Shown here piece after piece: positions 12,526-30,209 of a stretch of DNA of 64,000 bases. The first letter of the stretch is position 1; each line of letters begins with the position of its first letter. The DNA comes from Verticiella sediminum (lineage in GTDB: Bacteria; Pseudomonadota; Gammaproteobacteria; Burkholderiales; Burkholderiaceae_B). The notes under the pieces were generated by a model, which was not told the origin of the DNA, searched no databases, and worked only from the letters and a program-made list of their open reading frames with translations. The stretch spans positions 62,001 through 126,000 of the forward strand of contig NZ_VLTJ01000026.1 in assembly GCF_007558815.1 (NCBI RefSeq). The letters run 5' to 3'. The position numbers and the translations under genes were made by a program.

Positions 12526-12811
12526 GGGTCTCCAGTCGCTGGCTTGCGTAGCCGACAAAGTAGCACTGAAGAACTCTGTCGAGTTTGGGCGCTATCGTCC
12601 GGGGAGTGCACTGGCAACCAAGGGCGCCACACCATCAGCGACGGCGACGCGTTGCGCAGTGCCGCGCGCGATGGCATGGCATCGCCCGATTTCCGACTTG
12701 GCCGGTGCCGGCGCCGCGCCCGGGAAGTTCGGTAAGGATGCCAAGCCCCGGTAGACCGCATCCGAGAAATCACCGGAATCGCCTAGCGTACGCAGCCAGG
12801 GACCAAAATAC
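12526..12811. other. Intergenic region without recognisable gene
   Basis: Together with the following terminator and flank, a 349-bp spacer between the TetR gene and tRNA-Asp. Open frames here have no family resemblance. It should contain the tetR promoter; no clear operator is seen. Confidence 0.4.
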
Positions 12812-12842
12812 AAAAACCGGGCCACCCTTCGGTGTACCCGGC
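12812..12842 (-). terminator. Rho-independent terminator of tRNA-Asp
   Basis: On the minus strand a stem CCGGGTACACC / GGTGGCCCGG with a short GAAG loop is followed by TTTTTG. It begins about 33 bases after the tRNA 3' end. Confidence 0.75.
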
Positions 12843-12874
12843 TTCTGTAAGTGCTCGATTCAGCATGAATTCGT

Positions 12875-12951
12875 TGGCGGAGCGGACGGGACTCGAACCC
12901 GCGACCCCCGGCGTGACAGGCCGGTATTCTAACCAACTGAACTACCGCTCC
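12875..12951 (-). tRNA. tRNA-Asp (GTC)
   Basis: A 77-base minus-strand cloverleaf starts GGAGCGG and ends CCGCTCC-GCCA, with CCA encoded. The anticodon loop CTGTCAC gives GTC, the T-arm reads GGGTTCGAGTCCC and the D-arm AGTTCAGTTGGTTAGAA. Confidence 0.97.
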
Positions 12952-13246
12952 GCGGTTCTCTGTGACACTGGCTCGGGCTGCTTGCTTTCGCTTGCTGCCG
13001 TTGCGTACTGCGCTGCGTCAACCGAGATTCGAATTATGCCCCACCATTTTTTTCGTGTCAAACGCTTTCAGGAGATTTTCTCGAGTTTTCGTCTTCCCCG
13101 GACGGCCCAGCGTGAAGCACTGCGCGCCTCGCTCACGGCTTGCAGCTTGTATCATGGACAGCCGCACCCGATGTCAACGTTTTGCCGTTCGCGCTCGCGC
13201 AGGTCATGGCGCGGCAATCGATACAGGCGAGGAGAATGTCCGCGGT

Positions 13247-14548: not shown

Positions 14549-14572
14549 GCAAGCACGGAATCGGTACGGCCC

Positions 14573-15484: not shown

Positions 15485-15592
15485 GACATGCAGAACCTGA
15501 ACAATTAAAGATGCGTGACCACCGCGCCGGCCGACACCCTTCAGCCACTTACGAGGGAGGCCGCCGGACAAGGCGAGGCATACCCTACCGAT

Positions 15593-15623
15593 ATATGCGG
15601 AAATAGGATATCTCGATGCATAT
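15593..15623. promoter_or_regulatory. Inverted repeat in the LysR-gcdH spacer, possible LysR-type operator
   Basis: The arms ATATGC (15593-15598) and GCATAT (15618-15623) are separated by 19 bases in an AT-rich patch of the 322-bp divergent spacer, about 184 bp before gcdH. No other recognisable signal is seen in this spacer. LysR binding is a guess from position only. Confidence 0.3.
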
Positions 15624-15806
15624 TACTCGCTTGCAGGGGCGGCCGCAGCGGGGCTACCATCGCCTCCTGATCCAGGGGCGCGCCGATACGGCGTCCCCGG
15701 CAGCGTACGCTGCGCCGGCCGCCAGGCCGTGTCGCTCGCGTACCGCGCCGGACGACGGCGGCATCTCACCCGTCCCACGCCAACTCTCAGACTCCAGGAG
15801 ACATCC

Positions 15807-17006
15807 ATGGCCGACCGCGCCGCTTTCCAGTGGGACGATCCGTTCCTGCTCGACCTGCAACTCACCGAAGACGAGCGCATGGTGCGCGACGCGGCCAAGG
15901 CCTATTGCCAGGGCAAGCTCGCGCCCCGCGTGCTGGAGGCCTTCCGCAACGAGCACACCGACCCGTCCATCTTTCGCGAGATGGGCGAACTCGGCCTGCT
16001 CGGCCCGACCATCCCCACCGAATACGGCGGCCCCGGCCTGAACTACGTGGCCTACGGCCTGATCGCCCGCGAAGTCGAGAGCGTCGACTCGGGCTACCGC
16101 TCCATGATGAGCGTGCAGTCCTCGCTGGTGATGGTGCCCATCAACGCCTTCGGCACCGAGGAACAGAAGCAGAAGTTCCTGCCCAGGCTTGCCACCGGCG
16201 AATGGATCGGCTGCTTCGGCCTGACCGAGCCGGACCACGGTTCCGACCCCGGCTCCATGGCCACCCGCGCCTACAAGACCGATGGCGGCTACAAGCTGGT
16301 CGGCAACAAGATGTGGATCTCGAACAGCCCGATCGCCGACGTCTTCGTCGTGTGGGCCAAGGAGGTCGACACGGCCGGCAACGTCGGCCCGATCCGCGGC
16401 TTCATCCTCGAGAAAGGCATGCAGGGCCTCACCGCCCCCGCGATCCACGGCAAGGTCGGCCTGCGCGCCTCCATCACCGGCGAGATCGTGATGGACAACG
16501 TGTTCTGCCCCGAAGAGAACGCCTTTCCCGAGGTGCGCGGCCTCAAGGGCCCCTTCACCTGCCTGAACTCGGCCCGCTACGGCATCGCCTGGGGCGCGCT
16601 GGGCGCCGCCGAGGACTGCTGGCACCGTGCTCGCCAGTACGTGCTCGACCGCAAGCAGTTCGGCCGTCCGCTCGCCGCCAACCAGCTCATCCAGAAGAAG
16701 CTCGCCGACATGCAGACCGAGATCTCGCTCGGCCTGCAGGGCTGCCTGCGCCTGGGCCGCATGAAGGACGAGGACGTCGCCGCAGTGGAGATCACCTCCA
16801 TCCTCAAGCGCAACTCGTGCGGCAAGGCGCTGGACATCGCGCGCATGGCGCGCGACATGATGGGCGGCAACGGCATCTCCGACGAGTTCGGCGTGGCCCG
16901 CCATCTGGTCAACCTGGAAGTGGTCAACACCTACGAAGGCACGCACGACGTGCACGCGCTGATCCTGGGCCGCGCCCAGACCGGCATCGCCGCCTTCTCG
17001 AACTGA
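15807..17006 (+). CDS. gcdH: Glutaryl-CoA dehydrogenase
   Basis: FAD enzyme that oxidises and decarboxylates glutaryl-CoA to crotonyl-CoA in lysine, tryptophan and benzoate-type breakdown. The 399-residue length is normal. The N-terminus [20 protein letters not shown], the segment [15 protein letters not shown] and the C-terminal [20 protein letters not shown] are typical of GcdH; the catalytic base is Glu377 in YEGTHD. The ATG at 15807 has AGGAG seven bases before it, while the frame upstream is not conserved. Divergent from a LysR regulator. The CoA-transferase or ligase that often accompanies gcdH is not seen here. Confidence 0.95.
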
Positions 17007-17105
17007 GCGGCCGCCGGCAGGCCGCCCTGGCCTGCCCGCCAAGGCGGGCCGCGCGCGCCTTGGCTATGATGGTTCCATCGCCTTCACCAGCGCCCAGGAA
17101 CCATC

Positions 17106-17591
17106 ATGCGCTTCGAACACATCATCCAGATCAACTCCCACGAGATCGGCGCGCCGGCCGTGCTCAGCCGCGAGCAGGTCTGGCGCGGCATCGCCCTGCG
17201 CGCCTACGACCCGGCGCACTTCATCATCGGCCTCGAAGGGCATGCGGTGCGCCACCATGAGCGCCGCGACGACGGCACCGAAGTGATCGAGCGCACCCTG
17301 CACTTCGGCGTGTTCGAGGTGGACGACAAGGTCACCCTCACGCCCATGGAACAGATCCACGTCGAGGTCGCGGCCACCGACAAATGGCCGGCCTGCACGG
17401 CCACCGCCCGCATCGAGGAGCCCGAACCCTCGTCGCTGTTCCTGCGCTTCGTCTACGAATGGAACGACGCCGACCCCGCCGAGCAGGCGCTGTCGGACGA
17501 CGAGCGCCGCATGCGCGAACAGGCCCTCGTGGGCCTGGACATGGACACGGTGAGCCGGATTCGGGAACTGGCGGACAGCGGCATGCAGTGA
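17106..17591 (+). CDS. DUF1857 / AtaL-like SRPBCC family protein
   Basis: Small cytoplasmic protein of 161 residues with no signal or membrane segment. The beginning (MRFEHIIQINSHEIGAPAVL, then REQVWRGIALRAYDP) and the C-terminal part with SSLFLRFVYEWNDAD fit the DUF1857 group of the START/SRPBCC ligand-binding fold. Biochemical role is unknown. It follows gcdH on the same strand after 99 bp that hold a GC-rich hairpin (about 17030-17052), so it may have its own promoter. AGGAA lies just upstream of the ATG. Confidence 0.75.
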   Translation: MRFEHIIQINSHEIGAPAVLSREQVWRGIALRAYDPAHFIIGLEGHAVRHHERRDDGTEVIERTLHFGVFEVDDKVTLTPMEQIHVEVAATDKWPACTATARIEEPEPSSLFLRFVYEWNDADPAEQALSDDERRMREQALVGLDMDTVSRIRELADSGMQ

Positions 17592-17721
17592 GGCCGAGTG
17601 CATGGCCTGTCTCATGGTGGAGCAACGCATTGATACTGCCTCACCTGCTGCGATTCAACATCGAGACGCATCCCAAGCCTTACGCGAGGATTGCCGAACA
17701 GGGTTTTCTTTCAGCGCGCGC

Positions 17722-18117
17722 TCAACGCCTCGATGCCCCCGCGCTTTTCTTCGGCGAGCCGCGCCACCGTCGGCACAAGACGAGATAGACCGCCGCATTG
17801 CCGCCGATGAGCAGTGCGGCAAGCAGCGCCTGCACCGAACGGGTCAACCCCGGCGGGTAGATCATCAGCAAGAGATAGTGCTCGATGAAGCTGCCGCCGT
17901 ACGCCTGCTGCCCCGCCATTTGCCGCAGCGAAGTCTCCAGGGGCGTGAGCGGGCATACCCAGCCCATGGCGACCACCAGCGCGCCCCAAGCCATGGCCGG
18001 CAGGTGCAGCCAGACCACCCAGCGCCGCCAGAAGCCGAGCAGGCCGCCGAACACCGCGAAGACGATGAACAGGGCATGCACGAGCAGGACGAGGTCGGCC
18101 AGGATGCGGTAGATCAC
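17722..18117 (-). CDS. DUF2784 integral membrane protein
   Basis: A 131-residue inner-membrane protein with about four hydrophobic segments (near residues 7-27, 33-53, 85-100 and 100-118). The N-terminus MIYRILADLVLLVHALFIVF and the motif VVWLHLPAMAWGALV, then CPLTPLE, are typical of DUF2784. The highly basic C-terminus (RRWRGSPKKSAGASRR) should lie in the cytoplasm. Function unknown. It is convergent with the DUF1857 gene; the 130-bp spacer between them holds no recognisable gene. Confidence 0.85.
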   Translation of the reverse strand: MIYRILADLVLLVHALFIVFAVFGGLLGFWRRWVVWLHLPAMAWGALVVAMGWVCPLTPLETSLRQMAGQQAYGGSFIEHYLLLMIYPPGLTRSVQALLAALLIGGNAAVYLVLCRRWRGSPKKSAGASRR

Positions 18118-18358
18118 GGGCAGCCCTATGGCGAGGTCGGCCAGGAATTATAGGTAAGGACCGGCGCGCGCAGACGGCTGCGCCGCACATGGCAACCGCA
18201 GCACGCGCCGCAGACCGCCTTGCCCCAACACGCAAGCCTTGCCGAAGACCGACGAGACCACCCTGCGCCCCGGGGTCGCGGATACCTCATTCTGTGGCGA
18301 GGAAGCTGCGATCCCCGGACAACAGCGGCTCGGCGATATTGCCGGCCGATCCCGCTAT

Positions 18359-18395
18359 GAAATAACATATCGTTTCTTAATTGATACGTTATTAC
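18359..18395. promoter_or_regulatory. Zur-like inverted repeat in front of the ZnuD-like receptor
   Basis: Arms GAAATAACATATC (18359-18371) and GATACGTTATTAC (18383-18395) are inverted with 11 of 13 matching positions. Each arm holds a GTTAT core as in Neisseria-type Zur boxes (TGTTATNATAACA). It ends 5 bp before the ATG, a position that would block transcription or initiation. Confidence 0.5.
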
Positions 18396-18400
18396 ATACC

Positions 18401-20491
18401 ATGCCCACGCATCCGCCCCCCTATCCCCTGCTCGTCCTGGCCGCGGCCCTCTGTGGCGCTGCTCCGCTCGTCGTCCACGCAGCCCAGCCCGCCGCCATTC
18501 CCCAGCTCGCTCCCGTCACTGTCTCCGCCACGCCCTTCGAGCGCCCCGCCGACGATCTCGCCACGCCGGCGTTCATCCTGGAAGGCAGCGAGCTGGTGCG
18601 CCGCCGGGAGGCGACGCTGGGCGATACGCTGGCGGGCGAACCCGGCATCCATGCCAATACCTTCGGCGCGGGCGCCAGCCGGCCGGTGATCCGTGGCCAG
18701 GACGCGCCGCGGGTGAAGGTGCTGCAGGACGGATCGGAGATTCTCGACGCCTCGACGGTGAGCCCGGACCATGCCATCGTCACCGAGCCGCTGCTGACGC
18801 GCCAGGTCGAGGTACTGCGCGGGCCGTCCACCCTGCTCTACGGCGGCGGCGCCATCGGCGGGGTGGTCAACGTACTGGACGAGCGCGTCCCGACTGCGGT
18901 GCCCGAGCGCGGCGTGGAAGCCGAGGCGGAACTGCGCTACGGCACGGCGGCACGCGAGCGCGCCGGCGCCGTCGGCATAACGGCCGGCACGGGCAATCTC
19001 GCCGTGCGTGTGGAAGGGGCGAGGCGCCGTGCCGGCGACTACCGCGTGCCGGACTGGCAGGAACGCCGCGTGCCCGGCACCGACAACGACACGACGACTG
19101 GCACGGTGGGCGCCTCGTGGGTCACGCCCCGCGGCTACACGGGCATCGCCTTCACCCGGCACAACAGCAAGTACGGCCTGCCCGGGCACGACCAGGCGCA
19201 CGCCTACGAGGATTGTCATCCGCACGGCGCGCACCTGCACTGCGACGGCCACGACGATCACGATGACCATGACGACCATGACGATCACGGCGGCCACGAC
19301 GACCATGATCATGACCACAGCCACGATCACGATCACGCCGCCCCGTACGCCGACCTGACCAGCAAGCGCTGGGAGCTGCGCAGCGAGTACCGCGACCCCC
19401 TGCCCGGCTTCTCGCGCGTACGCCTGCGCGCTGCGCACACCGATTACCAGCACAGCGAGATCGAGGAAGACACCGCCGTGTCGGCGTTCCGCAACAAGGG
19501 CTACGACGCCCGGCTCGAACTGCAGCACCAGCCGCTGGCCGGCTGGCAGGGGGTGGTCGGCCTGTCCACCCTGCGCAGCGACTTCACGACCGACGGCACC
19601 GAGGCCTTCATGCCGCGCACCGTCACGCGCAACCACGGCGTGTTCCTGCTCGAGGAGTATGAGCGCGGCGACTGGCGCTTCCAGGCCGGCGCCCGCCACG
19701 AGCGCCAGCGCGTAACGCCCGAAGATACCCAGCCCCGCTTCAGCGGCGGCGCCACCTCGGTGTCCGGTTCGGCGCTGTGGCGTTTCGCGCCGCAATACTC
19801 GCTGGGCCTGTCGCTCTCGCGCTCGCAGCGCCTGCCCACCGCCCAGGAGCTGTATGCGGACGGCATCCATCTGGCCACCCTGACCTACGAACTGGGCAAC
19901 GCCGACCTCGGCAAGGAAACCTCGCACAACGTCGACCTCACCCTGCGCAAGTATCAGGGCGACACGACGTTCGAGGTGAGCGCCTATCACAACCGGGTGA
20001 AGGGCTACATCTACGCGGATACCCTGGACCAGCACGACGATTTCCGCCTCATCCAGTACGACCAGCGCGATGCCCGCTTCACCGGCATCGAAGGCCGGGT
20101 GCGCCAGCGCCTGAACGAGACCGTCAGCGCCAGCGTGTTCGGCGACTACGTGCGCGCGCGCTTCGCCGAGGGCGGCAACCTGCCCCGCATTCCTGCCGGA
20201 CGGCTGGGCGTGGCCCTGGACGCGCGCTGGCAGGCCTGGTCGGCGGGCGGCGAACTGTACCGCGTCTTCACGCAGAACCGGATTGCGGATTACGAGAGCG
20301 ACACCAGCGGCTACACCATGCTGGGCGCCTATGTCTCGTATCGCGGCAAGGCCGGCAGCACGGCTTACGAGGTTTATCTGAAAGGCAGCAACCTGCTCGA
20401 CAAGCTGGCCTACAACCACGCCTCGTTCCTGGCACGCACCACCCCGCTGATGGGACGCAGCGCCACGCTGGGGGTGCGCATCAGCTATTGA
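18401..20491 (+). CDS. znuD: ZnuD-like TonB-dependent zinc receptor with His/Asp-rich loop
   Basis: Outer-membrane receptor of 696 residues, predicted to import zinc. It has a signal peptide to about residue 25, a short TonB-box region (LAPVTVSATPFERP) and a plug at about 45-150 (RQVEVLRGPSTLLYGGGAIG). The barrel ends in LGVRISY. It lacks an STN domain, so it does not signal. A surface loop at residues 273-312 contains 16 His and 15 Asp plus Cys281, as expected for zinc or heme capture in the ZnuD family. The ATG at 18401 was chosen because the signal peptide begins there; the frame is open further upstream. The inverted repeat just before the start is a candidate Zur operator. Confidence 0.85.
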   Translation: MPTHPPPYPLLVLAAALCGAAPLVVHAAQPAAIPQLAPVTVSATPFERPADDLATPAFILEGSELVRRREATLGDTLAGEPGIHANTFGAGASRPVIRGQDAPRVKVLQDGSEILDASTVSPDHAIVTEPLLTRQVEVLRGPSTLLYGGGAIGGVVNVLDERVPTAVPERGVEAEAELRYGTAARERAGAVGITAGTGNLAVRVEGARRRAGDYRVPDWQERRVPGTDNDTTTGTVGASWVTPRGYTGIAFTRHNSKYGLPGHDQAHAYEDCHPHGAHLHCDGHDDHDDHDDHDDHGGHDDHDHDHSHDHDHAAPYADLTSKRWELRSEYRDPLPGFSRVRLRAAHTDYQHSEIEEDTAVSAFRNKGYDARLELQHQPLAGWQGVVGLSTLRSDFTTDGTEAFMPRTVTRNHGVFLLEEYERGDWRFQAGARHERQRVTPEDTQPRFSGGATSVSGSALWRFAPQYSLGLSLSRSQRLPTAQELYADGIHLATLTYELGNADLGKETSHNVDLTLRKYQGDTTFEVSAYHNRVKGYIYADTLDQHDDFRLIQYDQRDARFTGIEGRVRQRLNETVSASVFGDYVRARFAEGGNLPRIPAGRLGVALDARWQAWSAGGELYRVFTQNRIADYESDTSGYTMLGAYVSYRGKAGSTAYEVYLKGSNLLDKLAYNHASFLARTTPLMGRSATLGVRISY
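19250..19336 (+). repeat. Imperfect short repeat coding the His/Asp loop
   Basis: Degenerate tandem units of the type GA(C/T)CA(C/T)GAC encode runs of Asp-His-Asp inside the ZnuD-like gene. The length is a multiple of three, so slippage would change loop length without breaking the frame. Confidence 0.7.
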
Positions 20492-20550
20492 GCGCAGCAG
20501 CGGCGCCGGCACGCCGCTGCGACCGCCCACGAACCCAAAGCGCCGCCCGG

Positions 20551-20573
20551 CACCGGCCCCCCGGGGTCCGGTG
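20551..20573. terminator. GC-rich hairpin between convergent genes
   Basis: CACCGG-CCCC / GGGG-T-CCGGTG forms a stem of about nine pairs with one mismatch, between the ends of the zinc receptor and cytochrome b561 genes. There is no T-run, so termination is only likely by position. Confidence 0.4.
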
Positions 20574-20593
20574 ACGGGCGCGCGGTCTAGCGC

Positions 20594-21160
20594 TCAGCGC
20601 ACCTTTGCCGAATCCGTCGGCAAAGGCCCCATCATGCGGCTGGCAACGTCGTCGCGCCACAGCCGCTGATGGACGATCACCATGACGATGTGGCCGGCGA
20701 TGGCGGCGAGCAGCACCCACGCCAGCAGCCCGTGAAAAGCGCTCGCCGGCGCCGTCAGCGCCGGCACCTGCACACCGGTGGGCTCGATCAGCGTCATGCC
20801 GAAGAAGTTCAGCCCCTTGCCCGAACCGTAGGCGCGCAGGATCGCGAGCCCGGGGATGACGAGCATCAGCGCATACAGCGCCGCATGCCCCACGCGCACG
20901 GCCAGGCCGCGCGTGCCACCGCCGTGCGGCGGACGATGGCGCAGGTTGAGCAGCGCCCAGACGATGCGCAGCACCACCAGCGCGAACAGCAAAGTGCCGA
21001 CCGAGGCGTGGGTACCCACCCAGAACGACACCAGGGGTGTGCGCCCCAGCGTGATGCGCAGGATCATCCCGGTGAACTGCCAGAGAAACAGCAGCGCCAT
21101 GCCCCAGTGCAGACATCGGCTGATCAGGCCATAACCGGTGGGGGTGTCCCAGATGCGCAT
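20594..21160 (-). CDS. Cytochrome b561
   Basis: Small di-heme membrane electron carrier of 188 residues with four membrane helices. Histidines suited to heme binding are seen in ISRCLHWGMALL (helix 1), FWVGTHASVGTL (helix 2) and AFHGLLAWVLLAAIAGHIVM (helix 4), the family layout. It would pass electrons between the quinone pool and a periplasmic acceptor, often in superoxide or sugar-oxidation chains. It stands alone and convergent with the zinc receptor gene. GGGAG precedes the ATG at 21160. Confidence 0.9.
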   Translation of the reverse strand: MRIWDTPTGYGLISRCLHWGMALLFLWQFTGMILRITLGRTPLVSFWVGTHASVGTLLFALVVLRIVWALLNLRHRPPHGGGTRGLAVRVGHAALYALMLVIPGLAILRAYGSGKGLNFFGMTLIEPTGVQVPALTAPASAFHGLLAWVLLAAIAGHIVMVIVHQRLWRDDVASRMMGPLPTDSAKVR

Positions 21161-21593
21161 ACTTTGCTCCCATGCCGGCCGATGGCCGGGCGTATTGACG
21201 AAGTCGTATCACGGCGACGCCGCGCCGCCCTTGCGCGGCAAACCTTCATGCGCTGCCGCGCGCGCAGGCCGGCGCCTGCGCCAGGCTCGTCGGACTGGCC
21301 AGCGGCACAAAGGTTCACGCCAGACCGCAACCATCTGGCGTCGCGCATAGCCTGGCGGCCGGGACAGCCCCGGGATCACAGCACAGCCGTCGTGCGATGC
21401 CGAACGCCACGCCCGGTTCTTCGGAACACCGCGCCGACGGACATCGTGCCCCCCGGCGATAGATCAAACGCAGATCGCCTTCGCCGGTCTCGTACAAAGG
21501 ACCTCGATGTCATCCCGGTACTGCGACTGCAGCCGCTTGATCGGCTCGCATGCTGCGATCCGGCAACGTTCTCATTGAATCTATGCGTACAAT
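21161..21593. other. Intergenic region without recognisable gene
   Basis: The divergent spacer between cytochrome b561 and the second fecI-like gene. No family-like reading frame is seen. It should hold both promoters. An ATTCTCA-like half-site at its right end is listed separately; GTTCTCATTGAAT near 21568 is a second, weaker copy. Confidence 0.4.
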
Positions 21594-21615
21594 TGTGAAA
21601 CAATTCTCATTCTTA
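21594..21615. promoter_or_regulatory. Weak Fur-box-like site before second fecI gene
   Basis: An ATTCTCA half with a poorer left half (TGTGAAAC) is followed by CATTCTT, all in an AT-rich patch 24-45 bp before the ATG at 21639. About 10 of 19 consensus positions match. Position and context support iron control more than the match does. Confidence 0.35.
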
Positions 21616-21638
21616 AATGTTCTGTGCTCCGGCTCAGC

Positions 21639-22136
21639 ATGCAATCTCTCGACACTCTTTACCGCGAGCACCATGCATGGCTAGTGAAGCTGCTCCTGCG
21701 CAAACTCGACAGCCGCGAGGGCGCGGCCGATATCGCGCACGACACCTTCGAGCACCTGCTGCGCCAAGGCAGCGCGTTGCAGGCGCTGCGCGAGCCGCGT
21801 GCCTATCTGACCGCAGTTGCGCAGCGACTGGCGATCAGCCAGCACCGGCGGCAGATCCTGGAGCACGCGTATCTGCAAGCACTGCAAGCTCAACCCGAAG
21901 CGCTGGCGCCGCCCCCGGAAACCCGTTTGATGATCATGCAGGCCCTGGAGACCATCTGCAGGGTGCTGGAAGGGCTGAGCCCCCGCACGCGCACCATCTT
22001 CCTGCTATCGCGCCTGGACGGCCTGAGCCATCTCGAGATTGCCGCCGCTCTGCACATTTCGCCCAAAGCCGTACAGAAGGCGATATCGCAAGTCCTGCAG
22101 CACTGCTACGCCGTGATCTACGCGCATGACGTCTAA
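21639..22136 (+). CDS. fecI: FecI-family ECF RNA polymerase sigma factor (second module)
   Basis: Iron-starvation sigma factor of 165 residues. Region 2 at about residues 4-70 contains LYREHHAWLVKLLLRKL and IAHDTFEHLL. Region 4 at about 105-158 contains LDGLSHLEIAAALHISPKAV, the helix-turn-helix. The ATG at 21639 fits the family N-terminus (MQSLDTLYREH); a GTG five codons upstream is possible. It overlaps the FecR start by 11 bases. Sequence differs clearly from the first FecI in this window, so the two modules are not a recent duplication. It should drive the receptor operon at 23413. Confidence 0.9.
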   Translation: MQSLDTLYREHHAWLVKLLLRKLDSREGAADIAHDTFEHLLRQGSALQALREPRAYLTAVAQRLAISQHRRQILEHAYLQALQAQPEALAPPPETRLMIMQALETICRVLEGLSPRTRTIFLLSRLDGLSHLEIAAALHISPKAVQKAISQVLQHCYAVIYAHDV

Positions 22137-23235
22137 GCCTCGACCCCAGCCCCACGCTTCGCAATCTCCCCGCCCTGGCCTGGCCGATGGTGCGATGAAC
22201 GCCGGCACGCCGTCAGCGTTCACCCCGCAAAGGCCGCAAGCCTGCCCACTGCCGCCCGCCGTCGTGGCCGAGGCCGCCGACTGGATAGTCCAACTGCAAT
22301 CCGGCACGGCGGACGAGGCCGATATCCGGGCCTGCCAGGACTGGCGCGCCGCCGATCCGCGCCACGAGCTGGCGTGGCAGCGCCTGGCCTCGCTGGACCA
22401 TGATCTGCAACACCGCCTGGCGGCCGACGCACAGACGCCGGCTGCCGGCGCGGCACTGCGCCGCGGCCTGGATGAAATCGACCGCCGCCGGTCACGCCGC
22501 AAGTGGCTGGGCCGAACCTTGGGTGTGGCCGGCGCCGGTGTGCTGGGCTGGCACCTGCACCGGCACGGTGCCTGGTCAGGGTTGACGGCCGATCTGCATA
22601 CCGCAACCGGCAGCCGCCGCGTCCTGACGCTGGACGACGGCACGCTATTGCACCTGGCCACCGCCAGCGCGGTGGACCTGCGCTTCACGCCGCAGGAACG
22701 CCGCATCGTGCTGCATGGCGGGGAAATCCTGATCGCCACCGGCGCCGACCCGTTGGGGCGGCCGCTGCGCGTCGCCACGGCCGACGGCACGGTCTCGCCG
22801 CTCGGCACCCGTTTCGTCGTGCGGCGGCATGACAAACTGGCGGCTGCGGAGCCGACCACGTCCGTCGCGGTTCTGCAGGGCCGAGTACAGATTCAACCGC
22901 GCAGCGCGACCGGCATGCTGACGCTGGGTACCGACCAGCAGGCCGCCTTCAATGCCCAGCGCGTCGTGCGCGGGCCCATGCCCAGCGATCCTGGCGCGGG
23001 AGTCTGGACCGAAGGCATGCTGGTCGCCGAACGCCAACTGCTGGGCGAGTTCGTCGATGAACTGGCGCGCTGGCGTCCAGGCGTCCTGCGTTGCCATCCA
23101 TCGGTGGCAGCGCTGCAGGTCACCGGCAGCTTTCCGCTTGCCGACACCGACCAGGTGCTGGCAATGCTTGCGCGCATCCTGCCTTTGCAGGTCGTCACAC
23201 GCACGCGCTGGTGGGTCGAATTGCGGCCCGCCTGA
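22126..23235 (+). CDS. fecR: FecR-family sigma regulator (second module)
   Basis: Membrane regulator of 369 residues. A proline-rich N-terminus of about 40 residues precedes the DUF4880-type cytoplasmic domain (about 45-95; AADWIVQLQSGTADEADIRA and PRHELAWQRLASLD). A single membrane segment lies near 133-150, then comes the periplasmic FecR domain (about 165-275; RRVLTLDDGTLLHLATASAV) and the C-terminal receptor-contact region ending RTRWWVELRPA. It overlaps the sigma gene by 11 bases. The next receptor gene follows after 177 bp that hold a perfect 7-bp hairpin at 23288-23304 and the shared element. Confidence 0.9.
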   Translation: MTSKPRPQPHASQSPRPGLADGAMNAGTPSAFTPQRPQACPLPPAVVAEAADWIVQLQSGTADEADIRACQDWRAADPRHELAWQRLASLDHDLQHRLAADAQTPAAGAALRRGLDEIDRRRSRRKWLGRTLGVAGAGVLGWHLHRHGAWSGLTADLHTATGSRRVLTLDDGTLLHLATASAVDLRFTPQERRIVLHGGEILIATGADPLGRPLRVATADGTVSPLGTRFVVRRHDKLAAAEPTTSVAVLQGRVQIQPRSATGMLTLGTDQQAAFNAQRVVRGPMPSDPGAGVWTEGMLVAERQLLGEFVDELARWRPGVLRCHPSVAALQVTGSFPLADTDQVLAMLARILPLQVVTRTRWWVELRPA

Positions 23236-23287
23236 ACCTCGCTTCGGCGACCGCCGGGCTGCAATCGCCGCAAGAATTTTGTAACAA

Positions 23288-23304
23288 GAGGGGGAGTCCC
23301 CCTC
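23288..23304. other. Short perfect hairpin after fecR
   Basis: GAGGGGG-AGT-CCCCCTC forms a perfect seven-pair stem immediately before and partly overlapping the shared element at 23301. There is no T-run. It may separate the fecIR and receptor transcripts or stabilise a 3' end. Confidence 0.35.
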
Positions 23305-23317
23305 TCCTCGTGCGTCA
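23301..23317 (+). promoter_or_regulatory. Second copy of the element shared by the FecI/FecR-linked TonB receptor genes
   Basis: 15 of 17 bases match the element at 7334-7350, with CTCGTGCGTCA identical. It lies 96 bp before the receptor start. As both copies follow a fecIR pair, a -10-containing promoter for FecI-type sigma factors is the simplest reading. Confidence 0.45.
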
Positions 23318-23412
23318 AGGAAAGCAGAGGCACCTAGTGCCGCCGGTGCGATGCACCGGCCAGCCACTGTCCCCTTCATTCAAGCCATCCGCACACGAGG
23401 ACCTCCCTTTCC

Positions 23413-26028
23413 ATGACCCGCACTACTTCCCGCTCTCAACGTCCCTTCCGGTCGCCTCGACACGCTCCGCTACGGCCGTCGCCGCTGATGCTGGCCCTGC
23501 GCGCCGCACTGCTGGCCGGCGTGCTGGGCACTGCAACCGCTCTTGCGCCGGTCGGTCAGGCACAGGCACAGGCCCAGGCCGAGACGCGCGCCTACGATAT
23601 CTCGGCGGGGCCGCTGGACGAGGCCCTGAGCCGGTTCGGCCGCGCCGCGGGCCTGCTCCTGGCCGCCGACCCTCAGCTCACGGCAGGGCTACGCAGCCCC
23701 GGCTTGCAGGGAAGCTACCGTGTAGAACAGGGCTTGGCACGCTTGCTGGCCGGCACCGGGCTCGAAGCCGTACGCACAGCCGAAGGCGGCTACGCCCTGC
23801 GGCGCGTGCCCAACTCCCTCGGCGCGGCCGATACCGCACAGCCCGGCCCGAGCGAAGTGACCGTCCTGTCGACGATCCAGGTAACGGCCGAAGACCAGTT
23901 GCGCCAATCCCTGGGAGTTTCGGTCATCACCCAGGAGGACCTGGAGCTGCGCCCGCCCGCCAATGACCTGGCCGAAATCCTCATGACCCAGCCGGGCGTC
24001 AGCCTTTCGGGCGCCAGCTCCGTCGGCGCGTACGGCAACCAGCGCGAGATCGACCTACGCGGGATGGGTGCGGAAAATACGATGATCCTGGTCGACGGCA
24101 AGCCCGTGCAGTCACGCCAGGGCGCCATCACGCGCCGTACCGGCGATCGCGACACCAGCGGCGACACCAACTGGGTGCCGGTCGATGAGATCGAGCGCGT
24201 CGAGATCATCCGAGGCCCGGCCGCCGCCCGCTACGGATCGGGTGCCTCGGGTGGTGTGATCAACATCATCACCAAGAAGCCGTCGGACAAATTCCGGGGC
24301 TCCGTCACCACCTACCTGAGCATGCCGGAGAGCGACCTCGAGGGCAACGGAACACGCCGCCTGGGTGTCAATCTTTCGGGCCCGATCGCCGAGAATCTGT
24401 CGTTCCGCCTGTACGGCAACGTCGCCAAGACCGATGGCGACAAACCCACCATCAACGGGGTTCTCGACGACGGTTCGCCGAACTGGGTCGCTGGCCGCGA
24501 GGGCCGCCGCAACCGCGATATCAACGGTTTGCTGCGCTGGGATCTGACACCCGACCAGGTGATCGAATTCGAAGCCGGCTTCAGCCGTCTGGGCAATCGC
24601 TACGCCGGCGATACCTCCAACACCACGCCCTCGGGCGATGCGGCCGAGTTGCTGGGCGAATGGGCCGAACGGGGCGCCGAGACGCGGCGCGTCTACCGGC
24701 AGACCGCCGCCGTCACCCACCGCGGCAACTGGGGGGATCTGGGCAGCTCGCGCACGTTGTTCCAGTACGAAGGGACGCGCACCTCCAACTGCCGCCAGGG
24801 GTCGGGCGGGATGGGAGAAGGCAATTGCGGCACGACCGGCGAGCAGCAGCAATCCAACATGGACAACTTCTTCTTCAACAGCGAACTGAACACGCCGCTG
24901 AAGCTCGGCGGCCTGCAGCAGATGCTGACGACCGGCGTGGAGTGGCGCAAACAAAAGCTGAACGACAACAACGCGCTGCTGACTAGTGCCACGCCGCCGG
25001 AATTTGTCAAGATGGAAAGCAACACGCTCGCCTTCTACATGGAAGACAACATCAGCATCGGCAACGCCCTGATCCTGACGCCCGGCGTGCGGCTGGATCA
25101 CCACAGCAAGTTCGGCAACAACTGGAGTCCCAGCGCGAACGCCACCTACGAGCTGGGCGGCGGCTTCATGCTGAAGGGCGGCATTGCCCGCACCTTCAAG
25201 GCCCCGACGCTGTACCAGACGGCGCCCTCGTACACCTCGAGCCTGGGCGGCGCATGCCCTTACAACGGCCTGGGGCTTCCTGCCGACAGCTACGACTGCA
25301 CGGTCAACGGCAACCCCGATCTGAAACCCGAAATCAGCGTCAACAAGGAAATCGGCGTGGCCTGGGATGGGGAGAGCGGCGGGCACGCCAGCATGGCCTA
25401 CTTCCGCAACGACTACAAGAACCGGATCGTCGCCGAGGCGCTGTCAGCCATCGACACCGTGCCCTCGCTGGACGAGCCGGCCATCTTCGAATGGCAGAAC
25501 TCGGGCAAAGCGATAGTCCATGGCCTGGAAGGCAGTCTCACGATTCCCATCCTCGGTCGAAACGGCAGCACGCTACGGCTGCTGAACAACGTCACCTGGA
25601 TGTTCAGCAACCGCAACAAGGACACCAATCAGCCGCTGTCCATCATCCCGAAGTACACGCTGAACAGCACGCTGGACTGGCGCGTCTCGGAGAGCTTCAG
25701 CATGCAACTGACCTCGACGCTGTATGGCCGCCGCAAGCCGCGCACGGTGAGCTATCACGGCTACCGAATGGAAGGCGACGCCTTGCGCGAGCGCGGGTCA
25801 TACGTTTTGCTGGGCTTGAGCGGATCCTACAAGTTCAACGAGCAGCACCGCCTGACATTCGGCGTGAGCAACCTGCTGGATCGTCAGATCAAGCGCGCCG
25901 AGCGATTGGCCGCAGGCAACACCGCAAGCGGGCCGCTCGAGGAGCGCGTGATCACCAGCGGTGCCGGCGCACTGACCTACAACGAACCGGGTCGGGCGTT
26001 CTACGCCTCGTACACTGCGTCGTTCTGA
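23413..26028 (+). CDS. TonB-dependent siderophore receptor/transducer, FepA/BfeA-like with STN domain
   Basis: Outer-membrane receptor of 871 residues. A long signal region to about residue 57 is followed by an STN signalling domain (about 60-125; YDISAGPLDEALSRFGRAAG). The plug has FepA-type wording (LAEILMTQPGVSLSG, LRGMGAENTMILVDGKPV and PAAARYGSGASGGVINIITK). The barrel ends with ASYTASF. The plug groups it with catecholate (enterobactin-type) receptors, but FepA itself has no STN domain; the STN fits the adjacent fecI-fecR. Its stop overlaps the ATG of the methyltransferase (TGATG), so at least these two are co-translated. Confidence 0.92.
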   Translation: MTRTTSRSQRPFRSPRHAPLRPSPLMLALRAALLAGVLGTATALAPVGQAQAQAQAETRAYDISAGPLDEALSRFGRAAGLLLAADPQLTAGLRSPGLQGSYRVEQGLARLLAGTGLEAVRTAEGGYALRRVPNSLGAADTAQPGPSEVTVLSTIQVTAEDQLRQSLGVSVITQEDLELRPPANDLAEILMTQPGVSLSGASSVGAYGNQREIDLRGMGAENTMILVDGKPVQSRQGAITRRTGDRDTSGDTNWVPVDEIERVEIIRGPAAARYGSGASGGVINIITKKPSDKFRGSVTTYLSMPESDLEGNGTRRLGVNLSGPIAENLSFRLYGNVAKTDGDKPTINGVLDDGSPNWVAGREGRRNRDINGLLRWDLTPDQVIEFEAGFSRLGNRYAGDTSNTTPSGDAAELLGEWAERGAETRRVYRQTAAVTHRGNWGDLGSSRTLFQYEGTRTSNCRQGSGGMGEGNCGTTGEQQQSNMDNFFFNSELNTPLKLGGLQQMLTTGVEWRKQKLNDNNALLTSATPPEFVKMESNTLAFYMEDNISIGNALILTPGVRLDHHSKFGNNWSPSANATYELGGGFMLKGGIARTFKAPTLYQTAPSYTSSLGGACPYNGLGLPADSYDCTVNGNPDLKPEISVNKEIGVAWDGESGGHASMAYFRNDYKNRIVAEALSAIDTVPSLDEPAIFEWQNSGKAIVHGLEGSLTIPILGRNGSTLRLLNNVTWMFSNRNKDTNQPLSIIPKYTLNSTLDWRVSESFSMQLTSTLYGRRKPRTVSYHGYRMEGDALRERGSYVLLGLSGSYKFNEQHRLTFGVSNLLDRQIKRAERLAAGNTASGPLEERVITSGAGALTYNEPGRAFYASYTASF

Positions 26029-27452
26029 TGTCACAGCAAGACCTGGCCGGCTATGTTGCCGATGTCGAATACCCGCGGCATTTCTTCCGGGAAACCATGC
26101 CGCTGTGGCTGACCTCGGTGACGACGGCCCTCGGACGACGCGCGCCGGACCTGACCGCGCCTTACACGTGGCTGGAACTCGGCTGCGGCAGCGGGTTGGG
26201 CGCCGTGCTGGCAGCCGCCACCAACCCCCTCGGGCGCTTCATCGGCATCGACTTCAACCCCGATGCCATCGAGCACGCGCGCGCGCTGGCCGAGGCGGCC
26301 GGTGTGGCCAACGCACAGTTCCTCGCTCTCGGCTTCGAGCAGGCGCTGGACACGAGCGAGCAGGCGCTGCCGCCGTGCGACTTCATCGTGGTGCATGGCG
26401 TGTATTCGTGGATCGCGCCCACGCAACGCCGGGCCATCCAGGCGCTGGTGCGCCAGCGTCTCAAGCCCGGGGGCATTCTGTACTTGAATTACCTCAGCCA
26501 ACCGGGGTCGGCCTCGTTCGCGGCGGCCCAGCGGATGATGTACCTGCACACGCAGGGCCTTGCGGGCAGCGCCGCCCGCAAGGCGCGCGAGGCCGTCGCG
26601 CTGCTGCACGACATGGCCGATGCCGGGCTGGGCTATTTCCAGGATTTTCCGAACGCGCTGGCGAACATCCCGGCCGCCGACGCCCTGGACGAGGCCGGTG
26701 CAGCCTATCATGCCCACGACTACTTGAACCGGCACTGGGAAGCCCTGCACGTCTCCGACGTAATGCAGGACTTCGCTGCCGCCGACTGCGAATTCGTCGG
26801 CAGCGCGGCTCCTTACGAAAATATCGACAATGCCTCGCTGCCGGGGCGTGCCCAGGCCCTGTTGCGCCGACTACGGAGGCGGGGCGCGAGCGCAGCCGAG
26901 GTCGAGACGTTCAAGGACCTGGCGCGCAACCAGCTCTCGCGCGCCGACCTCTACCAGCGCCGTCATCCCGACGGCAACCTGCTGGGCGACGAGGCGCTGC
27001 GCCAGGCGCTGCTGGCGCAGCGTGTGTGCCTGCTGCCCGCCGCCCCCCGTGGCGCCGTGACCATGCAGGGCACACTGACGCTCCAGTCGCGCATCGGCCC
27101 CGTCAGGCTGCCGATACACAACGTCGCCCCGCTGCTCGATGCGCTGCAGGGCAGCCCGCGCAGCTATGCCGAACTGGCGCAGCTACCAGCCTATGCCGAC
27201 CGGCCCGGCACGATCAACGGCCTGCTGCAGATACTGGCCTGGGCGGGCTGGCTGCATTTCGTCCGGCCGGACCTCGCGCACGGCGCCGAGTGGAGCGACG
27301 CGGCCGACGACGCGGCAGGCAGGTTCAACGATGCGCTGACGAAGCTGCCCGAGCCCTACAACGGAGCCATCCGTGCCCACGGCTTGATCGGCTCCGCAGT
27401 CAGTGTGCCGGCCCGGCCGACCGACGCACCGCAGGCCTCGCACATGTCCTGA
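26028..27452 (+). CDS. SAM-dependent methyltransferase with methyltransferase regulatory domain
   Basis: Cytoplasmic class I methyltransferase of 474 residues. The SAM-binding motif I is seen at residues 49-56 (LELGCGSG), followed by FIGIDFNPDAIEHARALAEA and a motif-IV-like PPCDFIVVHGVYSWI. Residues of about 205-320 match the methyltransferase regulatory domain (HDYLNRHWEALHVSDVMQDF), and the C-terminal 150 residues look like the winged or PKMT-type tail of this group. The substrate is not known. The ATG overlaps the receptor stop by one base, which places a methyltransferase inside an iron-uptake operon; modification of a siderophore or of a transport component is speculation. Confidence 0.82.
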   Translation: MSQQDLAGYVADVEYPRHFFRETMPLWLTSVTTALGRRAPDLTAPYTWLELGCGSGLGAVLAAATNPLGRFIGIDFNPDAIEHARALAEAAGVANAQFLALGFEQALDTSEQALPPCDFIVVHGVYSWIAPTQRRAIQALVRQRLKPGGILYLNYLSQPGSASFAAAQRMMYLHTQGLAGSAARKAREAVALLHDMADAGLGYFQDFPNALANIPAADALDEAGAAYHAHDYLNRHWEALHVSDVMQDFAAADCEFVGSAAPYENIDNASLPGRAQALLRRLRRRGASAAEVETFKDLARNQLSRADLYQRRHPDGNLLGDEALRQALLAQRVCLLPAAPRGAVTMQGTLTLQSRIGPVRLPIHNVAPLLDALQGSPRSYAELAQLPAYADRPGTINGLLQILAWAGWLHFVRPDLAHGAEWSDAADDAAGRFNDALTKLPEPYNGAIRAHGLIGSAVSVPARPTDAPQASHMS

Positions 27453-27548
27453 AACCGCTGTGCGTCGATTCCCTTCTCACAGCCGAAAGACCGGCATGGC
27501 AAGGACATTTTCCCGGTCATCCCTATTTTCTTTTCCAAGGAAACAACA

Positions 27549-28991
27549 GTGCTACACATTCATGCCTTCCCACCGTTGCGCACGGCCCGGACCGCCGTGG
27601 CGGCTTGCATCCTGCTCGCGGCCGGCACCGCCTGGGCCGACGCGCGCTTCGGCCAGCCCGACGACAACTTCCAGGGACGCGTGAGCGCGGGCGGCGTCGT
27701 CTACCCGGGCAGCACGGTCACGCTGCAGGGCACGAACTTCAAGCCGGGACAGAAGGTGCAGTTCCTCTACGAGGGCGAGACGATCTCCGGCGAACCCGTA
27801 GCCGCCGATGTCGATGGCAAATTCAGCGTCGAGACCACCGTTCCCAAGAACGCCGTGCCTGGCCGTCACTCGGTGGTCGTGAGCGCCACCGAGCCTTCTG
27901 CTGCACTGATACACACACTCAAGGTGTCGCCTGATCTTCCGGTCTCGGGCGCCAACCGTTTCGACATCAAGTCCGAGAAGACGGTGACCGGCGTGTATCA
28001 GTCCGGCTACAGCGCCACGAACAGCGCGCTGTTCGTGGCCGCCGCCGTCGGCCGTCCGCCGGTCAAGGAATCCGTGCTGGCCAGGCTCGACCCCCGAACC
28101 CTGAAGGTCGTGCAGCAGGTCACACCCGGCCCGGCGCCCGGCCGTCCCGACGCTCAGGGCAACGCGCAGGACGGCGGGGTCTACGCCGTCTACGGCGTGG
28201 GCGTGGACGACGCGAACGGCAACATCTGGGTCAGCAACACTCGGCAGAACACGGTTGCCGTGTACCGACAGTCGGATCTGACGCTGCTCAAGCAGTTCGA
28301 CGCGGGCACCATCGGCCACCCACGCGACGTCATCGCGGACCAGAAAAACGGCAAAGTCTTCGTCAACCAGGCGCGCGGTACCAACGTCGCCGTGTTCGAT
28401 GCGAAGACGCTGCTACTGACCACCACCCTGGAATTGAACGCGCCACCTCCGCCGGCTGGCGCTGGCGGGCCTCCCGGACGCGGCGCCGCGCCAGCCGCTT
28501 TCCCGACCATGAGCATGAGCCTGGACGCCAGCGCAGGCAAACTCTTCGTGGTGGGCGCCAACGGCGAAGTCGCCGTCATCGATGCGGCCAGCAACGCCGT
28601 GGAGAAGGCCTACACGGTCAAAGGCGCTGCCGGCGCCATCGGCATCGCCCATGACGCGCAAAGCAACCGAATCTTCATCGCGTCCCAAGGCGCCGACGCG
28701 ATCGTCATCGCCGAAGCGGATACGGGTGACGTGCTGCACCGCGTGCCGGTCGGCGCCGGCCCGCTCAGCGTCGTGTTCGAACCCGTCAGCAAACGCGTCT
28801 ACGCCGCCAACCGCGGTTCAGGCACGATCACCGTGCTCGACGTCGACGGCAAGATCGTGGCGAACCTGCCGGGTGGCCCGCTACCGAACCACTTGACGGT
28901 GGCGCCCGGTGGCGTGGTCTACGCACTGAACAAAGGTCAGGCCGACGATGCTGCCAGCAACCACGTCCAGCGGATCCACGCCAAGCAATAG
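27549..28991 (+). CDS. YncE-like exported beta-propeller protein with Ig-like N-terminal domain
   Basis: Periplasmic protein of 480 residues with a signal peptide ending near TAWA (residue about 30). An Ig/IPT-like beta domain covers about 35-130 (VVYPGSTVTLQGTNFKPGQK). A seven-bladed YncE-type propeller covers about 140-470, with recurrent blades such as GVDDANGNIWVSNTRQNTVA and VSKRVYAANRGSGTITVLD. A Pro/Gly-rich insertion lies near residues 297-315. In E. coli yncE is iron-regulated and neighbours the TonB receptor gene yncD, which matches this context. Its own role there is unclear; here it probably handles a periplasmic ligand of the receptor. Confidence 0.8.
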   Translation: MLHIHAFPPLRTARTAVAACILLAAGTAWADARFGQPDDNFQGRVSAGGVVYPGSTVTLQGTNFKPGQKVQFLYEGETISGEPVAADVDGKFSVETTVPKNAVPGRHSVVVSATEPSAALIHTLKVSPDLPVSGANRFDIKSEKTVTGVYQSGYSATNSALFVAAAVGRPPVKESVLARLDPRTLKVVQQVTPGPAPGRPDAQGNAQDGGVYAVYGVGVDDANGNIWVSNTRQNTVAVYRQSDLTLLKQFDAGTIGHPRDVIADQKNGKVFVNQARGTNVAVFDAKTLLLTTTLELNAPPPPAGAGGPPGRGAAPAAFPTMSMSLDASAGKLFVVGANGEVAVIDAASNAVEKAYTVKGAAGAIGIAHDAQSNRIFIASQGADAIVIAEADTGDVLHRVPVGAGPLSVVFEPVSKRVYAANRGSGTITVLDVDGKIVANLPGGPLPNHLTVAPGGVVYALNKGQADDAASNHVQRIHAKQ

Positions 28992-29023
28992 GCTTTGTGC
29001 GTGGAATTCAAGCGGGTGACTTT

Positions 29024-29046
29024 CCGGCGGCCTGGATGGCCGCCGG
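29024..29046. other. Strong hairpin between the propeller and binding-protein genes
   Basis: CCGGCGGCC and GGCCGCCGG form nine perfect pairs around a TGGAT loop. No T-run follows. It may attenuate read-through or protect the upstream message. Confidence 0.45.
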
Positions 29047-29168
29047 CGTCCCCACATTTGTCATATAACGTTCACCAATCGGTGCTTCGACGCATGCCGA
29101 AGCGGATGCGATTCATCGTGCCCAGGAACCGCCCCTGGAACACCAGCCATGATTTTTGGAGAATTCTT

Positions 29169-30209
29169 TTGCAGACACCGATACTGACGCGCCGCCGTTT
29201 CACGGCGGCCCTGGGCCTGAGCCTGGTTGCAGCCGGCACTTTCGCAAGAGCTGCCGCGCCGAGCAGGAAAGTGGTGGCCCTGGACCTGACCGCGCTGGAC
29301 ACGCTCGACGCGATGGGCATCGAGCCGAGCATGGTCCCTGCTCCGCCGTCCGGCGAATCCACCGCCCGGTGGCCCAGCCACCTGATCGCCCAATACGGGC
29401 AGGATAAGTATGCCAAGCTGCCCGCGGGCCGCGCCGGCGAGGGCGAGCCCAATCCCCAACTGCAGCAGGTCGCGGCTTTCGCGCCCGACCTCATCGTGTC
29501 GGGGAGCCGTGGACGCGGCGGTTCGGCCGATGCGTTCAAGGACATCGCGCCCGTCGTCGTGCTGTCGGTCGACAATGCCCGCTTCGTCGAGAGCATTGCC
29601 GGAAATGTTGCGAGCTTGGGTGCGGCCCTCGGCCAGGAAGCCCTGGGACGCCGCGAGGCCGACGCGCTGCGCACCAGAGTGCGGACGCTGCATTCGAGCG
29701 CAGCCCGGCAGGGTACGGGCCTCGTGATGTTCAACGTCGGCAGCCGCGTGATGCCCCAACAGTCGGACGCCCGCTTTGGCATGCTTTATGAGTTGATCGG
29801 CATCCGTTCCGCCCTTTCTCCCGACGACGGCGCAGGCGGTCTGGGCAGCGGCCGCCCGCCGGCCAACAACGCGGCCAACGCAGACGACCCGGCTGCCAAG
29901 GCCGCTGCCGAGATCGAACAGAAGGCCCGCCAAGCAGCCGAAGCGAAGTACCTTGCAGACGCGCTGGCGCATGAACCCGACTGGTTGTTCGTGGTCGATC
30001 GCAACGCGGCATTCGGTGAGCTCAAAGCAGCGGAGACAATGGCGGCAACACCCGCCGTCGCCAACAGCCGGGCCTGGCGGCAAAACAAGGTCGTCTTCCT
30101 GGATCAGGACGGCGCGAGCTGGTATCTGATGGCAGGCAGCCTCGGGCTGCTGAATAACACGGTCGGGCTGGTGCAAGCCGCGTTCGATCAGCATGACGCT
30201 GGGAGGTGA
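29169..30209 (+). CDS. Tat-exported iron-siderophore ABC-type substrate-binding protein
   Basis: Periplasmic binding protein of the FepB/CeuE/FatB class, 346 residues. The N-terminus has a twin-arginine signal (TRRRFTAALGLSLVAAGTFA) ending at ARAA. The segments KVVALDLTALDTLDAMGIEP, QVAAFAPDLIVSGSRG and FKDIAPVVVLSVDN are typical of siderophore-binding proteins. The start is TTG at 29169: GGAGA lies six bases before it and the Tat signal begins directly; the longer frame upstream has no ribosome site. An unusual Ala/Asn-rich insertion lies near residues 220-260. No matching permease or ATPase genes are adjacent, so it is either an orphan or uses a transporter elsewhere. Confidence 0.85.
   Translation: MQTPILTRRRFTAALGLSLVAAGTFARAAAPSRKVVALDLTALDTLDAMGIEPSMVPAPPSGESTARWPSHLIAQYGQDKYAKLPAGRAGEGEPNPQLQQVAAFAPDLIVSGSRGRGGSADAFKDIAPVVVLSVDNARFVESIAGNVASLGAALGQEALGRREADALRTRVRTLHSSAARQGTGLVMFNVGSRVMPQQSDARFGMLYELIGIRSALSPDDGAGGLGSGRPPANNAANADDPAAKAAAEIEQKARQAAEAKYLADALAHEPDWLFVVDRNAAFGELKAAETMAATPAVANSRAWRQNKVVFLDQDGASWYLMAGSLGLLNNTVGLVQAAFDQHDAGR

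Follow-up and report, generated by a model that had tools for sequence, protein, structure and literature searches.

The window analysed here is a 64,000-nucleotide (nt) stretch of the Verticiella sediminum genome (G000, 6.0 Mb; window G000:C15:62001-126000). It contains a putative operon of six plus-strand genes at positions 21639-30209, in which a methyltransferase gene directly follows the gene for a TonB-dependent siderophore receptor. Open reading frame and family scans returned, in order, a FecI-like sigma factor, FecR, a receptor with an STN domain, the methyltransferase, a YncE-like protein and a binding protein. A first-pass annotation of the window had named the same six families, and the Pfam and NCBIfam models support each of these readings. 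The features are as follows.

21639..22136, plus strand: fecI-like extracytoplasmic function (ECF) sigma factor gene, ATG start (PF08281/PF04542 and FecI-like NCBIfam models)
22126..23235, plus strand: fecR-like anti-sigma/signal transducer gene (PF04773 FecR and PF16220, DUF4880)
23287..23305, plus strand: 9-bp perfect hairpin (inverted repeat) in the fecR/receptor gap
23413..26028, plus strand: FepA-family TonB-dependent receptor with STN signalling domain (Pfam STN, plug and barrel; NCBIfam FepA; PDB PirA and ferric enterobactin receptors)
26028..27452, plus strand: protein lysine methyltransferase (PKMT)-like methyltransferase of the receptor-linked clade (PF10119; PDB and fold match to Rickettsia PKMT1/PKMT2; clade in two trees)
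27549..28991, plus strand: YncE-like beta-propeller with N-terminal beta domain, GTG start (NCBIfam and fold match)
29024..29046, plus strand: 9-bp hairpin (inverted repeat) in the gap between the YncE-like and binding-protein genes, a possible break in the transcript
29169..30209, plus strand: periplasmic ferric-siderophore binding protein (YclQ/CeuE/FatB-like) with a signal resembling those of twin-arginine translocation (Tat), TTG start (PF01497; PDB YclQ, enterochelin uptake binding protein and FatB)

The first three genes resemble a FecI-FecR-FecA type signalling system with a FepA/PirA-type receptor, as an ECF sigma factor, FecR and an STN-bearing receptor are encoded together in that order (Pfam/NCBIfam). 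The locus differs in having a FepA-type rather than a FecA barrel, and in that the putative operon continues with a methyltransferase. The fecI-like product, for which an alternative GTG start lies at 21624, scores under the FecI equivalog cut-off of NCBIfam; its gene end is overlapped by the fecR start. The 871-residue receptor has STN, plug and barrel and passes the NCBIfam FepA subfamily cut-off (819.3 bits versus 493). The start of the 474-residue methyltransferase shares one base with the receptor stop codon (TGATG), exactly as the first-pass annotation had described. Gaps of 96 nt and 177 nt separate the methyltransferase from the YncE-like gene and the latter from the binding-protein gene, respectively. 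A promoter and terminator scan gave 0 promoters and 2 terminator-like sites (shuffled mean 6.8), with no terminator call at the 29024-29046 hairpin.

The methyltransferase and its nearest relatives

The window methyltransferase matches PF10119 (MethyTransf_Reg) with 56.8 bits against a cut-off of 25.5. In a single-sequence search the nearest solved proteins were PKMT2 (E 1.1e-17) and PKMT1 (E 2.5e-15), and a profile built from 14 relatives matched the same two PDB proteins at E 2.7e-38 and 6.5e-36. The AlphaFold2 (AF2) model has a mean predicted local distance difference test score of 85.9, and when it was used as a Foldseek query ranks 1-8 were all PKMT1/2 chains. VIA aligned PKMT2 (5doo) over 406 residues within residues 13-474 of the window enzyme (Z 26.5), followed by the lysine methyltransferase Rv2067c as the next family (Z 20.9); the other rows listed reached Z values of at most 15.9 over approximately 170-210 residues. 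The Rickettsia OmpB lysine methyltransferases PKMT1 and PKMT2 (PDB 5dnk, 5do0, 5doo and 5dpl) are thus the best match by both sequence and fold. They differ from the window enzyme in that identity is just 16-19%, and in that a second enzyme of the same genome, on contig C43, is far closer to them (233.8 bits versus 67.5 for the window enzyme).

The window enzyme combines the features of outer-membrane PKMTs, namely a class I S-adenosylmethionine (AdoMet) domain, a PF10119-type domain and the C-terminal domains of the PKMT fold (Pfam, AF2/VIA). According to the main text of PMC11784438, AdoMet is held in PKMTs by an Asp and a His residue (D74 and H118 of RtPKMT2), and D75 and H123 of the window enzyme align with these contact residues. 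Across 14 aligned relatives the Asp is invariant (14/14) and the His is kept in 12. No signal peptide was seen by eye, and the enzyme is taken, from its sequence, to be cytoplasmic. By these matches and by the modelled fold it is related to the outer-membrane-protein lysine methyltransferases, with lysine as the putative methylated residue.

The main text of PMC11784438 describes one such enzyme, KmtA of Acinetobacter sp. Tol 5, an outer-membrane PKMT of type A that methylates the trimeric autotransporter adhesin AtaA. Compared with the window enzyme by way of that paper rather than by sequence, KmtA is likewise PKMT-related with the same AdoMet-contact residues, and acts on one outer-membrane protein with high specificity. 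It differs in its target, a trimeric autotransporter adhesin, and the main text makes no mention of TonB, siderophores or an operon. The same text proposes that species without trimeric adhesins may use such enzymes on other outer-membrane proteins, a suggestion that provides the place where a receptor-linked enzyme fits.

Linkage of the enzyme clade to TonB-dependent receptors

A methyltransferase relative (E 1e-20 or better) is carried by 32 of the 151 genomes of the window's family. We read the flanks of relatives from family, order, class and phylum samples and assigned each frame a type by comparison with three reference enzymes from the window's genome. Mainly top-scoring places were fetched with flanks, and the profile searches scored at most 4 candidates per genome and can miss members. 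Methyltransferase frames below 380 residues (L126, for example) stand outside the tree and the linkage count, and L120 and L160 yielded none that could be used.

In a tree of 121 enzymes, the window enzyme falls in a clade of 17 with a Shimodaira-Hasegawa-like approximate likelihood ratio (SH-aLRT) support of 100 (quick method, no bootstrap). Outer-membrane PKMTs divide by sequence into type A, clustering with KmtA, and type R, clustering with the Rickettsia enzymes. This clade groups away from the set containing the Rickettsia-like C43 enzyme; the KmtA sequence is not among the rows. A TonB-dependent receptor gene lies directly upstream, on the same strand and with gaps of -1 to 197 nt, for 16 of the 17 (the window locus being entered by hand in the linked count), while the remaining member, L010, begins at a contig edge. 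By comparison, only one of the 104 enzymes outside the clade is linked (L171), 100 are unlinked and 3 have less than 1 kb of upstream sequence (Fisher 8.4e-19, for tree rows that are not independent). At L171 (G010:C10:1-13000, 5906-9746, minus strand), the methyltransferase belongs to another clade and follows a TonB-dependent receptor gene after 112 nt, perhaps having been recruited independently a second time.

A second family, that of a distant clade member, was also searched, and 19 of 198 genomes gave a match. All 19 window-type loci have a receptor directly upstream (one had already been counted as L172), of which 14 are FepA-type by best match and 5 resemble the receptor of L173; the sole relative of the other enzyme type has no receptor upstream. 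In L263 and L274 the frame has additional letters ahead of the enzyme, and for L255, which has an in-frame TGA, the longest open piece was used. Among 6 examined of 26 plasmid records with relatives, the Acidovorax sp. DW039 plasmid encodes a FepA-family receptor, followed after 257 bases by the methyltransferase, and on a plasmid of the alphaproteobacterium Haematobacter massiliensis OT1 the two genes are 46 bases apart. The Paracoccus methylovorus enzyme is not directly behind a receptor: a response regulator and an ATP-binding (kinase-like) protein precede it, and a divergent FepA gene lies in the same locus. On plasmid p546-2 of Roseomonas haemaphysalidis (L272, ~4995-6255) an enzyme relative is in pieces, with no receptor within 5 kb; it is 40.6% identical to the L172 enzyme, compared with 40.5% for that of Haematobacter, has no long frame and is absent from the tree. 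It is perhaps a decaying orphan of a receptor-enzyme pair. Azospirillum and Rhodospirillum relatives outside the clade stand beside glycosyltransferases and an M10 metallopeptidase-type protein.

A wider tree, its outgroup limited to 26 chosen rows plus the new ones, contains 38 clade rows (SH-aLRT 100). Of these, 36 are directly behind a catecholate-type receptor, the exceptions being L010 at its contig edge and the Paracoccus gene. Clade members occur in 11 of the 151 genomes of the window's family and in 19 of the 198 of the second family. Among the places fetched, a phylum sample of 398 genomes yielded 3 with clade members, the window's own included, and an order sample of 399 yielded the window's own alone. 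Among 5426 E. coli genomes none had a match extending over 80% of the L172 pair, and the listed matches involved fepA only. Named hosts are the betaproteobacteria Azoarcus, Xenophilus and Acidovorax and the alphaproteobacteria Haematobacter and Paracoccus; G761 and G628 come from families placed in a different order within the window's class, and these families would be gammaproteobacteria in the older sense.

The genes beyond the pair vary, and include a MacB-type exporter, glutamyl-tRNA reductase, an SbcC-like protein and, at two linked loci, an AraC-type regulator (ten proteins scanned). Using tblastn at 1e-5, the YncE-like and binding proteins were not found at 12 other linked loci with downstream sequence, nor FecI and FecR at 10 other linked loci with upstream sequence. 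The first-pass annotation had treated the larger gene set as a candidate new system, and had made linkage beyond close relatives one of its tests. Linkage of the receptor-methyltransferase pair is conserved far outside close relatives, while no second occurrence of the whole set was found. What is conserved is the pair, scattered and long-lived in unrelated bacteria, and the system is smaller than first proposed and of a different kind, a receptor-plus-methyltransferase cassette.

Five linked receptors were scanned against family models. Those of the window and of L172 pass FepA cut-offs, whereas those of L056, L058 and L173 pass no cut-off and score best with the PRK13483/PRK13513 'ligand-gated channel' models, then with CirA and FepA models; we describe the latter three as putative catecholate receptors because model scores label them CirA-like. 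Linked receptors are of two types and do not form one clade, and one enzyme sub-clade goes with the CirA-like receptors. The receptor tree, which has long branches and unsure deep placements, needs 6 label changes, of which strongly supported branches make at least 5 unavoidable. Among FepA-type receptors, linked and unlinked ones intermingle, and the enzyme clade is therefore the constant element. The window's own genome additionally encodes two tandem FepA-like receptors without a methyltransferase (G000:C28:92175-96771, L243).

Candidate role of the cassette

Based on sequence comparison and on analogy with characterised relatives, we consider it probable that the clade member is a dedicated lysine methyltransferase that modifies its own receptor, the presumed substrate, before export. 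The proposed cassette would comprise a catecholate-type TonB-dependent siderophore receptor gene followed by that of the receptor's own outer-membrane-protein lysine methyltransferase. The cytoplasmic enzyme would meet the receptor chain during synthesis, aided by translation off the same mRNA where the genes overlap (TGATG), and receptor lysines would be methylated ahead of Sec export, as the Rickettsia PKMTs act on OmpB and KmtA on AtaA. Methylated lysine retains its charge, with size, hydrogen bonding and protease sensitivity altered. Likely effects would concern the level of the receptor at the surface or the behaviour of its loops. In the window, the cassette would sit within a FecI-FecR signalling operon, to which the YncE-like and binding-protein genes look like local additions. 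In favour of receptor methylation, those closest relatives whose targets are known modify outer-membrane proteins, and clade members keep the receptor as their one constant partner. Some relatives of the other enzyme type also stand beside large surface proteins, in a hand-picked sample detailed below. Distances within 16 receptor-enzyme pairs correlate (r 0.79, 0/5000 permutations), a pattern that plain co-inheritance would produce as well. The presence of this linkage in scattered, unrelated bacteria suggests that the receptors themselves are chemically modified.

Several observations weigh against this assignment. The PKMT profile match stops at profile position 317 of 453, identity to the Rickettsia enzymes is low, and the AdoMet-site His is replaced by Thr in 2 of the 14 aligned rows. 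The Paracoccus and Roseomonas enzymes lack a receptor directly upstream. Linkage alone names no substrate, and does not tell methylation of the receptor apart from that of a molecule it imports. In the family sample, compared by coordinate, the enzyme is present at 10 of 53 FepA-like places, and receptors therefore work without it. When 16 linked receptors were compared with 25 unlinked ones (those with no methyltransferase place of the family search adjoining), lysine content of the FepA-type receptors was 2.6-4.1% and 2.5-4.4%, respectively, with no enrichment, and no alignment column separated the two groups. Since lysine content and positions are alike, the receptor sequences lend no direct support. 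One column alone, at position 722 of the window receptor, leans to lysine, found in 8 of 12 linked rows (L173 included) versus 1 of 25; the window receptor itself has Arg there. In the family sample, the four linked receptors belonging to the second type contain 4.8-5.3% lysine, with no unlinked receptor of that type collected.

The first-pass annotation had proposed that the methyltransferase modifies either the siderophore or a transport factor. The latter fits if the factor is the receptor itself. The former, in which the enzyme would act in the cytoplasm to O- or N-methylate a catecholate siderophore or its breakdown product for inactivation or recycling, we judge unlikely. The five scanned linked receptors are best matched by FepA-family or CirA-like models, and a catechol may therefore be the common ligand; moreover, class I methyltransferases of this fold act on many small molecules, as the lower Foldseek and VIA rows attest. 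However, the best sequence and fold matches, the latter nearly full-length, are protein lysine methyltransferases, which lowers the standing of siderophore modification, and of the relatives outside the clade whose upstream sequence could be assessed, 100 of 101 lack a receptor gene immediately before them. It is also improbable, in our estimate, that the enzyme is a protein methyltransferase with another uptake or signalling protein as its target, such as FecI, FecR, TonB or a periplasmic protein. Its location within a FecI-FecR operon, and that of the Paracoccus enzyme behind a response regulator and a kinase-like protein, would be in keeping with such a role, but FecI and FecR were not found at the 10 other linked loci with upstream sequence, and the two loci with an AraC-type regulator gene have it instead; the receptor alone is constant.

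A single variant uptake route made up of all six genes, in which the YncE-like protein would be a periplasmic partner and the binding protein would be exported by Tat, appears very unlikely. The genes share a strand and are separated by gaps that are short to moderate; proteins related to the YncE-like and binding proteins have ties to siderophores, and in a same-genus genome a YncE-like gene stands between two receptor-like stretches. Set against this, neither protein was found at the 12 other linked loci with downstream sequence, a FecIR-receptor relative in G099 lacks all three downstream genes, and the binding-protein gene comes after a 177-nt gap with a hairpin. Finally, neutral linkage, with the methyltransferase merely carried along with the receptor by chance, is barely credible. 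The pair is found among varied neighbours and on plasmids, and therefore moves as a unit; yet 36 of 38 clade members stand directly behind receptors of distinct types in several families, as opposed to 1 of 101 outside.

Iron, phages, bacteriocins and siderophore-antibiotic conjugates all gain entry by way of TonB-dependent receptors. Tentatively, and with considerable doubt, we propose that the clade enzymes each mark one catecholate receptor before export, and that the mark tunes what the receptor admits or limits its amount at the surface. Tuning would keep ferric-catecholate uptake while changing lysines used by competing ligands, bacteriocins or phages. The open-licence papers searched, supplementary proteome tables not covered, contained no report of lysine methylation of a TonB-dependent receptor, and none of them joined 'methyltransferase regulatory domain' with TonB-dependent proteins. 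The linkage names a likely further class of methylation target, in the form of a simple two-gene cassette; receptor marking, if true, would be an undescribed layer of control over TonB-dependent uptake.

Relatives of the other enzyme type were found beside large surface proteins (RTX, DUF4214 or autotransporter) for 8 of 10 neighbours, which were hand-picked by size or exported look and provide no rate. These PKMT-like genes are at L190, L195, L183, L200, L167, L069, L169 and L124, and the adjoining proteins are possible substrates. At L188 (G1050:C1:2713000-2732999) three PKMT-like genes lie within 11 kb of one genome, two of which share 26 bases in the frames called.

YncE-like protein, binding protein and other uptake genes

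The YncE-like protein scores 96.5 bits, below the NCBIfam YncE equivalog cut-off of 400, and is thus YncE-like rather than YncE. Its AF2 model has an all-beta N-terminal part (~44-126), consistent with the Ig-like domain noted in the first-pass annotation, together with a propeller that among PDB entries matches E. coli YncE best. The E. coli protein, whose gene adjoins a TonB receptor gene, shares the beta-propeller and differs in lacking the extra N-terminal beta domain and in its genomic context, relatives of the window protein being near EntF-like non-ribosomal peptide synthetase (NRPS) genes. There are 30 YncE-like places besides the window's. Of the 12 fetched, 11 (one on contig C45 of the window's genome) are preceded on the same strand by an EntF-like NRPS gene, which is within 200 nt in 7 and 1.3-1.9 kb away in 4; the copy from the same-genus genome (L111) has no NRPS in its locus. 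NRPS genes were recognised by likeness to the C45 NRPS, which scores 910 bits with the EntF model, below its cut-off of 2400. Because its homologues stand near EntF-like NRPS genes, the window protein appears to be a paralogue of a protein from a catecholate cluster that has come to lie in a receptor operon.

The preferred start of the binding protein, chosen by eye, is the TTG at 29169, seven bases past GGAG, the mechanical call being 28995. Its N-terminus, TRRRFTAALGLSLVAAG, is Tat-like as judged by eye, and its PF01497 score is 55.2 bits against a cut-off of 27.5. Relatives at 32-37% identity occur in 21 other genomes of the 151, and tblastn of the linked loci found none of them beside a receptor-enzyme pair.

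Contig C45 carries, at G000:C45 ~11600-28600 (L094, L065), an EntF-like NRPS, the YncE-like paralogue, a binding protein, a FecCD permease, an ATPase and esterase-like genes, the ATPase and esterase-like genes being named by eye and BLAST. This region is likely the catecholate siderophore cluster of the window's genome. The first-pass annotation had correctly pointed out that no permease is present at this locus, and had suggested that the gene set could be a variant uptake route. The genome's two PF01032 (FecCD permease) matches are on C45 and C21. Because C45 carries a binding-protein and FecCD-permease set, likely the inner-membrane partner in trans, the lack of a permease gene at the locus does not point to a new route. 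A permease-free route is made less plausible by the C45 set itself and by the relatives of that set, which adjoin a FepA-like receptor in G101.

Ahead of fecI (21400-21660), no 19-mer has 12 or more matches to a Fur consensus; an AT-rich stretch there reads AATGAGAAT on its minus strand (found by eye). The best Fur-box-like 19-mer of the window is at 5543-5561, with 15/19 matches to that consensus, some 2 kb ahead of a further receptor with an STN domain (7546-7665). A ZnuD-like receptor with a His/Asp-rich stretch is encoded at 18239-20491 on the plus strand; its score of 729.5 bits falls short of the ZnuD cut-off, 950. Just ahead of the putative operon, on the opposite (minus) strand, lies a cytochrome b561 gene at 20594-21160.

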